Assembly: GCF_007483665.1 (NCBI RefSeq)
Contig: NZ_ML660188.1
Span: 253,105-317,104 of the forward strand
Direction: 5' to 3'
DNA length: 64,000 nt
Source of the DNA: Catellatospora sichuanensis
GTDB lineage: Bacteria > Actinomycetota > Actinomycetes > Mycobacteriales > Micromonosporaceae
The notes beneath the pieces were generated by a model that saw nothing but the letters and a program-made list of their open reading frames with translations, was not told the origin of the DNA and did not search any database. The translations under genes were made by a program, and so were the position numbers. Positions 42,129-45,091 of the stretch are shown piece after piece. The first letter of the stretch is position 1, and each line of letters starts with the position of its first letter.

Positions 42129-44066
42129 TCAGGCCATGCCGTTGCCGGAAGAAGGTGAGCGCCGTCGCGCGGGCAGCGCTCCCCGCACCGGCCGGTAGCC
42201 CGCGAACGCCGACTCCAGCACGCCTTCGCCGCCGGTCACCTCCGGCAGCACCCGGTGCAGCTCCTGGGCGTGCGCGGCGGTGAGCGTCGCGACGACGGTC
42301 ATCTCGTCGCCGCGCGCGACCTGGTCGGCCACGACGGACCGGAGCTTGCTGAGCACGCTGAGGACCGGGCCGAGCGCCCACGCCGGAATGTCGAGGGTCA
42401 CCCTGGCCAGCGGCTCGCACACGGTGGTGCCGGACGCGGCCAGCGCCTGCGACATGACCAGCGGGGTCAGCTTGCGGAAGTCCGCGGCCGTGCTGTCCGG
42501 TCCGCGCAGCGACGGCGGCCCGTCCGCAACGCTGTACCGCGACTCGGTCATCGTCACGACGCAGTCCGTCACCGGCCAGCCGCGCGGGCCCGCGCGCAGC
42601 GCGTCGCGGATGTACTCGCCCATGCTCTCCTTGAACAGGTCGAGCGTGCGGTAGACGTACAGCGGCGCGAACCGGTAGTCCACCGGCACTCGCACCTGGA
42701 CACCCGATCCCAGGGGCGCGGGTTCGATGCGCAGCCCGATGGTGGCCCGGTACGGGTTGGACGGTGTGTTGAGCCGTTCCACCGCCTCGCCGACGCCGGC
42801 CGGGCGCTCGACGCACAGCGTCGTGGTCTCCCGGAAGTCGGCCTCGACGCCGAACTCGGCGGCCAGGGTCGCCCGGATGACCTCCTTCTGCACCTCGCCG
42901 TAGAGCGAGACCGCCGTGCCCAGGTTCTCGTCGGCCCGTACGTTGATCAGCGGGTCCTGCTCGGCGAGCTGCGCCAGCGCCGAGCGCAGCCGCGCGCCGT
43001 CGGCGGGAGACGCGGGCACGAGCAGTGCTTCGAGCATGGGCGGGGCGAAGTGGTGCGCGGTCAGCCCGTCCGCCTCGCCGATGGCGTCGCCGACGTGGAC
43101 GGCGGTCAGGCCGCGCAGCGTCGCGATGCCGCCCGCGGTGACGCTGTGGTGCGGGACCCACTCGCCGTGCGCCAGCATGTGCAGCGCCGTGATCCGGTCC
43201 CGGCCGCCGGTCGGGTGGTCCCGCACGTGCAGGGTGCCGTCGAACATGCGCACGTAGGCGACCTTCTCCCCCGCCGACCCGCGTTCGATCTTGAAGATTC
43301 GCCCGCTCGGGCGCGCCACAGGGTTCCCGGCCGACGCAGGCAGCAGGTCCGTCAGACCCGCCATGAGCGCGTCGACTCCGGCGCCGGTCATCGCCGAACC
43401 GGCGAAGACCGGGTGCACCGCGCACCGGGCCGTCTGCGCGGCGAGTTCCGCACGCAGCCGCCGGGGCGTCAGGCTGGACTCGTCCGCGACGTACGCGGCC
43501 AGCAGTGCTTCGTCCTCACCGGTGAGCACGTCGGCGAGCATCCGGGTGTCCGCTTCGGCCACGGCGCCCCGTTCGCCGGGCCGCACCACCCGGGTCATCG
43601 GTGCGGCCTTCACCGCGAGGCGGCGCGCCAGGTCGGCGAGGGTGCGTTCGGCGTCGGCGCCACCTCGGTCGATCTTGTTGATGAAGATCAGTGTGGGCAC
43701 CGCGAGCCGCCGCAGCGCGCGCATGAGCAGCCGGGTCTGCGGCTGAACCCCCTCGACGGCCGACACGACGAGCACCGCCCCGTCGAGCACGCCCAGGACA
43801 CGGTCCACCTCGGCGATGAAGTCCGGGTGACCCGGGGTGTCGATGATGTTGACCGCGGTGTCGCCGATCCGCAGTGCCGCCACGGCCGAGCGGATGGTGA
43901 TGCCCCGCTGGCGCTCCAGCGCCAGCGAGTCGGTCTGCGTCGTGCCCGCGTCGACACTGCCGACCGCGTCGATGACCCCGGCCGCGTAGAGCAGCCGTTC
44001 GGTCAGTGACGTCTTACCGGCGTCGACATGGGCCAAGATCCCGAGATTGAGCGTGCGGAGCGACAA
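42129..44066 (-). CDS. Tetracycline-type ribosomal protection protein (Tet/OtrA family translational GTPase)
   Basis: 645 residues from TTG 44066. EF-G-like: G1 AHVDAGKTS near residue 12, RQRGITI, DTPGHPDF and NKID, then the EF-G-like domains, with a C-terminus matching Tet(O/M)/OtrA proteins that remove tetracycline from the ribosome. An in-frame TGA two codons before TTG rules out a longer start. The start is served by AAGGA (44075-44079) lying inside a leader reading frame. In actinobacteria the family includes both self-resistance and intrinsic resistance genes, so the drug concerned cannot be named with certainty. Confidence 0.9.
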   Translation of the reverse strand: MSLRTLNLGILAHVDAGKTSLTERLLYAAGVIDAVGSVDAGTTQTDSLALERQRGITIRSAVAALRIGDTAVNIIDTPGHPDFIAEVDRVLGVLDGAVLVVSAVEGVQPQTRLLMRALRRLAVPTLIFINKIDRGGADAERTLADLARRLAVKAAPMTRVVRPGERGAVAEADTRMLADVLTGEDEALLAAYVADESSLTPRRLRAELAAQTARCAVHPVFAGSAMTGAGVDALMAGLTDLLPASAGNPVARPSGRIFKIERGSAGEKVAYVRMFDGTLHVRDHPTGGRDRITALHMLAHGEWVPHHSVTAGGIATLRGLTAVHVGDAIGEADGLTAHHFAPPMLEALLVPASPADGARLRSALAQLAEQDPLINVRADENLGTAVSLYGEVQKEVIRATLAAEFGVEADFRETTTLCVERPAGVGEAVERLNTPSNPYRATIGLRIEPAPLGSGVQVRVPVDYRFAPLYVYRTLDLFKESMGEYIRDALRAGPRGWPVTDCVVTMTESRYSVADGPPSLRGPDSTAADFRKLTPLVMSQALAASGTTVCEPLARVTLDIPAWALGPVLSVLSKLRSVVADQVARGDEMTVVATLTAAHAQELHRVLPEVTGGEGVLESAFAGYRPVRGALPARRRSPSSGNGMA

Positions 44067-44127
44067 ACGTCAAGTCCTTCGAACGAGCGGGCAAGAGAGC
44101 TTCGAAAGAGTTGAACGTCGCTCGCAT
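44014..44127 (-). CDS. Leader peptide overlapping the ribosomal protection gene
   Basis: 37 codons from ATG 44127, preceded by GAGGAG, ending at 44014 inside the resistance gene in another frame. It begins MRATFNSFEALLPARSKD. The resistance gene start and its SD lie within it, so a ribosome moving or stalling on the leader would change access to that SD. Similar in principle to known leader-controlled resistance genes. No homology is claimed. Confidence 0.6.
   Translation of the reverse strand: MRATFNSFEALLPARSKDLTFVAPHAQSRDLGPCRRR
44075..44109 (-). promoter_or_regulatory. SD-sequestering hairpin of the ribosomal protection gene
   Basis: On the minus strand, TCTTTCGAA (44109-44101) pairs with TTCGAAGGA (44083-44075) over a 17-nt loop, 9 bp including one G-U. 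The second arm contains the AAGGA ribosome binding site of the TTG start. A ribosome stalled in the leader would open it. Confidence 0.55.
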
Positions 44128-44230
44128 GTCTTGCTCCTCGCTCGTGGAACGCCTGTCGCCGACCACGTAACCATCATCCGCACCCGCCGCGCGACCCATT
44201 TCCGTCCCGCCACGCCGCTCACGTGCAGAA

Positions 44231-44276
44231 GGAAGGGCACCTTCTTGACGGACGTCCGTCAAGAAGGTGCCCTTCC
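44231..44276. terminator. Perfect 46-bp palindromic terminator after the SDR gene
   Basis: Two 23-base arms meet without a loop at 44253/44254 and contain an AAGGGCACCTTC core. It starts 9 bp beyond the SDR stop. I recall closely similar hairpins repeated through Micromonospora-type genomes; that needs a search. Confidence 0.8.
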
Positions 44277-44284
44277 CTCGTCTT

Positions 44285-45091
44285 TCAGCTGTCGAGCAGG
44301 GACTTCATGCGGTCGGCGATGAGGGCGGTGGCGCGCTGCGGGATCAGTCGGGCGAGCCGGTCGAGCAGGCGCGCGTCGCCGCCGATGCGTACCCGGAAGC
44401 TGCCCTTCTCCACCGCCTGGATGATCTGCTTGGCGGCGTCGGCGGGGCTGGTCAGCTTCGACCCGGTGCCCGCCGAGTCCATGTCGCGGCCGGCCATGCT
44501 GACCCCGGAGTTGCCGAGGATGTTGGTGGCGACGCCGCCGGGGAACACCACGGTCACCGCGACCGGGGTGCCGCGCAGCTCGGCGTACAGGCCCTCGGTC
44601 AGCAGCTTGACCGCCGCCTTGCTCGCGCCGTACGCGCTCTGCCCCGGCACCGGCAGCAGCGCGCCCATGCTGGACACGTTGACCAGGCTGGCCTGCGGGC
44701 GGGCGAGCAGTTCGGGCAGGAACACCTTGCTCATGTTCACCACGCCCCAGAAGTTCACCGCCATCACCCGCTCGATCTCGTCGAAGCCGAGGTCCTGGAC
44801 GCGGGCGAAGCGCTGCACGATCCCGGCGACGTTGATCAGGCCGTCGATCTGGCCGTGCTCGGCGATCACGTCGCCGGGCAGCTTCTCGACCGCGGTGCGG
44901 TCGGCGATGCTCAGTACGTGGCCGCTCAGCCGCTCCCCGGCCGCAGCGAGGCGGGCGGTCTCGGCCAGGCCGGTCTCGCTGAGGTCGACGGCGGCGACGC
45001 GGGCGCCACGGGCCAGCAACCCGAGGACGACCTCGCGGCCGATGCCGTTGCCGCCGCCGGTGACGACGAAGACCCGCTGTGCGATCTGCAT
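44285..45091 (-). CDS. Short-chain dehydrogenase/reductase
   Basis: 268 residues. Rossmann TGGGNGIG near residue 11, NVAG strand-4 motif, catalytic Ser in VNVSSMGALLP, and YxxxK as YGASK. A classical SDR with a C-terminal extension of about 30 residues. It follows the ketosteroid dehydrogenase-like gene by 42 nt and is probably co-transcribed; a hydroxysteroid or similar alicyclic alcohol is a reasonable but unproven substrate. Confidence 0.9.
   Translation of the reverse strand: MQIAQRVFVVTGGGNGIGREVVLGLLARGARVAAVDLSETGLAETARLAAAGERLSGHVLSIADRTAVEKLPGDVIAEHGQIDGLINVAGIVQRFARVQDLGFDEIERVMAVNFWGVVNMSKVFLPELLARPQASLVNVSSMGALLPVPGQSAYGASKAAVKLLTEGLYAELRGTPVAVTVVFPGGVATNILGNSGVSMAGRDMDSAGTGSKLTSPADAAKQIIQAVEKGSFRVRIGGDARLLDRLARLIPQRATALIADRMKSLLDS

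Follow-up and report, generated by a model that had tools for sequence, protein, structure and literature searches.

A short leader open reading frame (ORF) and a hairpin enclosing the Shine-Dalgarno (SD) site of the following gene were found at the start of a ribosomal protection protein (RPP) gene in Catellatospora sichuanensis, and comparison with related loci indicates that the two together are very probably a real control switch. The best reading, to which a probability of roughly 0.7 was assigned, is a translational attenuator, in which the halting of a ribosome at the first codons of the leader would open the hairpin for the resistance gene. The window, meaning the whole stretch of DNA analyzed, comprised 64,000 nucleotides.

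The RPP gene occupies positions 42129-44066 on the minus strand and encodes, from a TTG start, a 645-aa GTPase related to Otr(A) and Tet(M). Among the NCBIfam models, Otr(A) ranked first with 646 bits (NF000120, cut-off 900) and tet_protect gave 625 bits (NF012153, cut-off 775), so that the protein lay under the curated cut-offs of both tetracycline protection families; eight further RPPs scored 604-729 bits on NF012153 and 625-760 bits on NF000120. Pfam EF-G domains were present, TetM and TetO were the nearest solved structures, and the nearest named relatives were the proteins of C. paridis (93%) and C. vulcania (90%). The domain IV loop, YSVADGPPSLRGPDST, is longer than the YYSPVST loop of the Tet(M/W)-like loci L127 and L128, and that of the Streptomyces relatives differs yet again.

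The leader ORF has 37 codons (44014-44127, minus strand), lies in the +1 frame and overlaps the RPP gene by 53 nt. It is preceded by its own SD site, GAGGAG (44134-44139, minus strand), and a purine-rich, SD-like stretch was also seen before the aligned leaders of relatives. The arrangement given in the initial annotation, a 37-codon leader with its own GAGGAG overlapping the start of the resistance gene, was thereby recovered in full. The leader stop codon, TAA (44014-44016, minus strand), arises where the P-loop codons GGT and AAG (Gly-Lys) of the RPP gene adjoin. Directly upstream of the TTG at 44066, a TGA stands in the RPP gene's own frame.

The same annotation had two arms pairing over 17 nt and hiding the AAGGA site of the RPP gene (44075-44079, minus strand, +48 from the leader ATG). 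The hiding held, while the 17 pairs did not: the quoted arms, TCTTTCGAA (44109-44101) and TTCGAAGGA (44083-44075), allow 9 pairs, including one G-U; 8 of them are used in the minimum-energy fold, and the stem continues outward. Followed in that direction, it reaches 15 pairs between 44118-44102 and 44082-44067, interrupted by a single bulge and a single mismatch, with three further pairs on the inner side, and it encloses the whole AAGGA. The 5' arm (44102-44118, minus strand) corresponds to leader codons 4-9, and the 3' arm (44067-44082, minus strand) includes the RPP SD. Taken by itself, the fold of the window RNA was ordinary (z = -1.50, with 18 of 200 shuffles equal or better), and the case therefore rests on comparison with relatives.

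Comparison of the leader across related genomes, a check proposed with the initial annotation, favored the leader. A first set contained 101 distinct homologous loci (50-100% protein identity) from Actinomycetota and some metagenome-assembled genomes (MAGs) labelled Chloroflexota, Saccharibacteria, Truepera and others, after seven duplicates and two loci with short upstream DNA (L019, L083) had been dropped. An ATG at -75 to -45 with an ORF running through the gene start was observed in the leader frame in 89 of these loci and in each other frame in one; when GTG was allowed, the counts were 93 for the leader frame and 9 and 2 for the others.

In an enlarged set from the same family and phylum, an ATG leader beginning at -90 to -40 and stopping by +75 was present in 164 of 174 RPP loci, with 5 and 0 in the other two frames under the same criteria. 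With GTG starts allowed, the leader frame reached 166 of 174 and the others 28 and 1. Within a set from the window's own family, 91 of 93 loci carried the ATG leader, the stop position being unrestricted; the other two are L191 and L194. Given its presence in 164 of 174 related loci and its occurrence before ABC and MFS transporters as described below, the element is widespread rather than confined to this genome. A narrow peptide pattern had suggested a leader confined to close relatives, which was overturned by listing the small ORFs at gene starts. Three MAGs labelled Thermomicrobiales (L022), Dehalococcoidia (L029) and Saccharibacteria (L067) had the leader at -58.

The ten loci without an ATG leader were L017 and L035 (both with a GTG start), L054, L191, L194, L030, L051, L064, L120 and L121. 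By reading, L054, L191 and L194 have a similar leader that is shorter or in another frame; in L191 and L194 it is shifted to the third frame and begins Met-Pro-Arg and Met-Ala-Arg, respectively. The 174-locus count excludes the Tet(M/W)-like loci L127, L128 and L130 (38-39% identity, genomes of 1.9-2.5 Mb), a label based on this identity and the YYSPVST loop. No leader was present in these three loci when they were read; two of them have an upstream ATG, but it opens a much longer ORF without leader sequence. An earlier, wider count of 168 of 177 had taken in L127 and L130, whose ATG opens a long unrelated ORF; that set left out six loci without the anchor peptide (L171, L177, L183, L196, L200, L201) and three duplicates. 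Fragment G027 is not part of the leader counts, and counts given below out of 160 refer to leaders starting at -52, -55, -58, -61, -64 or -79.

The leader stop falls at a nearly constant position inside the gene: +53 in 155 of the 174 loci, +44 in a further 11. The P-loop glycine that supplies the stop was encoded by GGT in 158 of 174 loci, and the share of GGT among 6771 other glycine codons in 111 of these genes was 10.5%. Judged by this codon usage, the stop position of the leader is under selection. A +1 frameshift from the leader into the gene was also considered; it was set aside because 116 of 160 loci have a TGA in the gene frame at 0, -3, -6 or -9 relative to the anchor, and because of the selection on the leader stop.

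Leader codon 2 was Arg in 148 of 160 loci with a free third base, since CGC, CGA, CGT and CGG all occur. Codons 8-16, which form the hairpin loop, were variable, the commonest residue at each reaching 16-43%. This variability makes a long arrest peptide unlikely, and the likely sensing point is for the same reason the start and first codons of the leader.

Stem pairing was evaluated by explicit pair counts. In the commonest class, with the leader ATG at -58, the 5' arm consists of codons 4-7 (GCG TTC ATG TCC) and the 3' arm, which holds the RPP SD, of codons 17-20 plus the base after them (AAG GAC ATG ACG C). Among 85 distinct leaders, 84.5% of the pair cells were canonical, compared with 25-56% when the partners were slid by 1-6 and with a mean of 77.9% (maximum 80.9%) when arms were swapped among loci in 2000 trials. 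Cells differing from the consensus on both sides were canonical in 41 of 63 cases. Duplex energy medians for the -58 class (n = 86) were -23.0 for cognate, -19.5 for swapped and -11.8 for shuffled arms; for the three leaders of the -64 class, the three kinds of arm hardly differed.

A pair-count alignment was made from 82 of the 86 leaders starting at -58, omitting L067, L188, L202 and one duplicate. Here 88.0% of the cells were paired, compared with 24.6-48.8% in slid versions, and the covariation score was 0.169, compared with 0.110 ± 0.006 in shuffles (none of 500 reached it) and 0.050-0.089 after sliding. Doubly changed cells numbered 25 versus 5.6 in shuffles, but slid versions gave 11-33. 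Six of the 11 pairs had changed on both sides, a value reached by 53 of 500 shuffles and by slid versions (5-10), and hence not above controls.

The changes were also placed on a FastTree phylogeny of 59 RPP genes, namely those of the 86 leaders with long gene sequence, from which the first 30 codons had been removed. Compensated pairs required 25 changes (33 of 48 doubly changed cells), and slid versions 9-18 (14-28 of 43-132). Independent-pair counts on the tree were 12.8 changing the same way and 0.6 the other, compared with 6.8-10.1 and 1.4-4.8 after sliding, which is a moderate excess; pair 10-59 showed no compensated change. With RNAalifold, neither the 82-row alignment nor sets of 89 and 52 rows yielded a structure, and 23 rows yielded a weak one (-7.1 kcal/mol); this result was counted as contrary evidence.

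A covariance model of the leader-hairpin element, R1, was used to search further genomes. Matches were obtained in 25 of 197 genomes of the class and in 56 of 200 genomes of the family of G539, both at E 0.01, and in 74 of 249 genomes of the family of G306 at E 0.001; matches in the window's own genome were weak (E 0.3 to 5.3). After removal of seven places seen twice, 151 places remained, of which 140 lay before RPP genes, 10 before ABC exporters and one before an MFS transporter. Most RPPs were recognized by the P-loop motif (22/25, 45/57 and 67/70), and L231, L232 and L327 by reading. Also by reading, the RPP genes at L238, L248, L299 and L361 are decayed, with the leader element still in place.

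RPP matches are expected from the way R1 was built; the transporter matches are not. The ABC-exporter loci are L226, L240, L247, L266, L271, L272, L274, L276, L280 and L282, all ten with membrane and ATPase domains, and the MFS locus is L284; in this sample, transporter loci were seen solely in the family of G539. In all 11, the gene start lies 61-64 nt and the leader stop 99-129 nt from the leader start, and by reading the promoter box is kept. Nine leaders begin Met-Arg (not those of L271 and L284), and codon 2 is the Arg codon AGG in five of the ten ABC-exporter leaders. When 13 loci were aligned to R1 (the 11 transporters and the decayed RPPs L238 and L248), 92.3% of the stem was paired; clear covariation was not found in this 13-locus set alone, in which the version slid by +2 scored 0.154 versus 0.150. 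The exporters of L240 and L247 retain an RPP-like DAGKT stretch at the N-terminus, and the overlapped code elsewhere looks unrelated. The N-termini of L240 and L247 suggest that capture of the element also brought along the opening codons of an RPP gene.

The distance from the leader ATG to the RPP SD was +48 in 101 of 160 loci, +45 in 26 and +47 in 11, with the pattern unmatched in 16. A ribosome on the leader ATG was modelled as covering the leader to +15. For 151 of the 160 leaders, the modelled median cost of opening the SD was 7.95 kcal/mol when free and 3.36 kcal/mol with the ribosome on the leader ATG; shuffling the 5' arm gave 3.28 kcal/mol, about equal to the ribosome-covered value.

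For the window RNA, the modelled opening cost was 5.1 kcal/mol when free, 6.6 kcal/mol with a ribosome on the ATG and 3.4-3.7 kcal/mol with one at codons 3-7, so that the modelled gain is nil for a ribosome on the leader start and small from codon 3 on. In the sister species L090, no relief was obtained (3.7 kcal/mol free, 3.6 kcal/mol at codon 3). The strongest part of the stem lies about three codons further into the leader in the window species than usual; in this species, the ribosome would need to halt on codons 3-9 and not at the start. On these models, energetic support for attenuation within the genus Catellatospora is weak.

The translational attenuator would operate as follows. Transcription would probably begin some 30 nt upstream of the leader ORF. 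In the absence of drug, the hairpin that holds the resistance-gene SD would form between leader codons 4-7 and 17-21 (4-9 and 16-21 in Catellatospora), and ribosomes translating the leader would pass over the SD and start codon and exit inside the gene; through the overlap, the gene start may in this way stay covered by leader ribosomes that are not disturbed. A ribosome-binding drug would stop a ribosome at the start or within the first few codons of the leader, and the footprint of this ribosome would take away the 5' arm. The SD at +48 would stay beyond the halted footprint, so that a second ribosome could enter at the resistance gene. That the leader is translated, where the ribosome halts, which drug induces and in which direction control acts are here inferred.

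Transcription would probably be driven by WhiB7/WblC. In the window, a putative A/T-rich box, GGAAAT (44198-44203, minus strand), which was read by eye and resembles a WhiB7/WblC box, is followed after 3 bp by a -35-like TCGCGC (44194-44189, minus strand) and, 18 bp from the latter, by a putative -10 element, TTACGT (44165-44170, minus strand). Across the family, an A/T run stands shortly before a -35-like GGTTG or GGTCG, at about -71 from the leader ATG. The pattern of box, -35 and -10 was found in 63 of 160 loci versus 0.56 in shuffles, and box plus -35 without the -10 in 84 of 160 versus 8.7, with the pattern composed after reading the sequences and shuffles that preserve base content only. 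The genome of the window also encodes a WhiB protein (L295, G000:C6:278678-278824), in which a Whib domain is followed by an RPRGRPRK AT-hook, a combination we take to be the mark of WhiB7/WblC. The family pattern has the layout given for WblC targets in the available part of one study, GAAAWY 3 bp before the -35; among the direct targets is tetM (SCO0783) in S. coelicolor (PMC7157823). A WhiB7/WblC-type promoter probably adds a second control, and two translation-stress responses would then be stacked.

A palindrome at 44228-44279, perhaps the terminator of the SDR gene upstream, separates that gene from the leader promoter; its two 26-nt arms are 96% complementary and directly adjacent. A similar palindrome was present in L090 and L092 and absent in L009, L010 and L093.

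With the promoter box in place and tetM a WblC target in the study just cited (PMC7157823, available part), the drug response could in principle come from the WhiB7/WblC promoter alone, any ribosome on the leader melting the hairpin by plain translational coupling. Such coupling would show the same leader, stem and spacing, and was nevertheless considered unlikely. The leader stop is conserved at a point 44-53 nt into the gene, and leader ribosomes would cover the SD; in coupled genes, the first stop is usually near the second start. In addition, a ribosome on the first codons would have a footprint ending just short of the SD, which is a better fit to a halted ribosome.

The conserved stop inside the gene, ABC and MFS loci included, would also suit a switch by occlusion, in which leader traffic covers the gene start, drug-halted leader initiation clears it, and the hairpin tunes the basal level only. 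This was judged quite improbable, as it leaves the covarying stem unexplained.

Transcription attenuation in the leader, intrinsic or Rho-dependent, would resemble the control of tet(M), wblC or ABCF genes. Other resistance genes of actinobacteria that have a uORF are controlled in this way, according to the available parts of two sources (PMC12421871, PMC11550727); for the present leader it was rated slightly less probable still. A scan of 43950-44330 on the minus strand, which is that of the leader, revealed nothing resembling a terminator, in agreement with the initial annotation, which had noted that a tet(M)-type transcription-attenuation layout is missing; moreover, the conserved stem holds the SD and, by reading, is followed by no U-run. 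Rfam 15 at gathering cut-offs gave no family in the window. A search with E up to 1 in L203, L209, L226 and L284 gave just two matches, both to miRNA families in L203 (E 0.04 and 0.43), which were rejected as chance.

The idea that there is no device, and that an accidental ORF and hairpin arose from overlapping coding constraint in high-GC DNA, agrees with the window fold (z of just -1.50) and has next to no probability, being contradicted by the frame, stop-codon, Arg2, covariation and reuse counts.

A broader proposal was held to be evenly balanced. According to it, the translational attenuator would be a portable actinobacterial mRNA module, in which the Met-Arg leader reports halted initiation or early elongation caused by any drug, which has been reused before RPPs, ABC exporters and an MFS transporter, which forms a two-key arrangement with the WhiB7/WblC promoter, and whose leader doubles as a shield in the off state. 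If the attenuator reading is true, a large group of intrinsic resistance-type genes in soil actinobacteria has a second, post-transcriptional switch, which would explain drug-dependent expression beyond promoter control and offer a simple way to ask whether drugs halting early translation are sensed generically. The R1 model would let further genes be found by their control element rather than by protein family.

No description of the leader element was found in the literature searched, which consisted of open-licence papers. In the available part of the paper naming SCO0783, the word "leader" is absent from the main text and "uORF" occurs once, for wblC (PMC7157823). A structured-RNA survey of 50 genomes lists eight uORF candidates, and "tetracycline" is absent from its main text as far as available (PMC11109978).

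Several known systems resemble the element in part. In tet(M), an RPP gene is controlled by transcription attenuation with a leader ORF before it; the present element has no terminator layout. The tet(Q) leader of Bacteroides, reportedly the four-codon uORF of Wang et al. 2005, likewise places a tetracycline resistance gene under a very short uORF; it belongs to other bacteria and has four codons, whereas the present leaders mostly have 35-37 codons and overlap the gene. The accessible part of PMC12121999 cites Wang et al. 2005 for a uORF of four codons in tetracycline resistance. For tet(W), a putative leader, tetLP, is placed before the RPP gene in the section at hand of PMC3350403. The wblC/whiB7 uORF also mediates an actinobacterial antibiotic response, but by transcription termination and with another leader, as stated in the available part of PMC11550727. 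The cplR uORF of Clostridia, MR[I/M], is short, begins Met-Arg and acts by translational attenuation; it differs in serving an ABCF gene and in being combined with transcription attenuation (PMC10201436, available part).

A precedent is toiL-topAI of E. coli, in which, according to the available part of PMC12121999, tetracycline halts ribosomes on the start codon of the toiL uORF and thereby opens the SD of topAI. It concerns a toxin-antitoxin gene, and no homology is claimed. Unlike toiL-topAI, the present element has a covarying stem, a stop inside the gene, a WhiB7/WblC-type promoter and resistance-type targets.

In cat attenuators, a halted leader ribosome frees a sequestered start, and erm and cat leaders end before the gene and sense the drug by the nascent peptide; the present leader overlaps its gene, and its loop codons are variable. 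The likeness to erm attenuators lies in the freeing of a sequestered start by a halted leader ribosome (PMC5118997, available part). Features of a translational attenuator observed here are an upstream leader with its own SD and a stem sequestering the gene SD, the latter weaker in the window RNA. The textbook leader that ends before the resistance gene was not found, the stop lying at +53 or +44 in 166 of 174 loci. Of the classical translational attenuation claimed initially, the attenuation is consistent with the comparative data and the classical layout was not upheld, because the leader stops inside the resistance gene. The element would work alike without its leader ending before the gene, and is for this reason best described as a variant of translational attenuation, classical in its logic and new in its layout and reuse.
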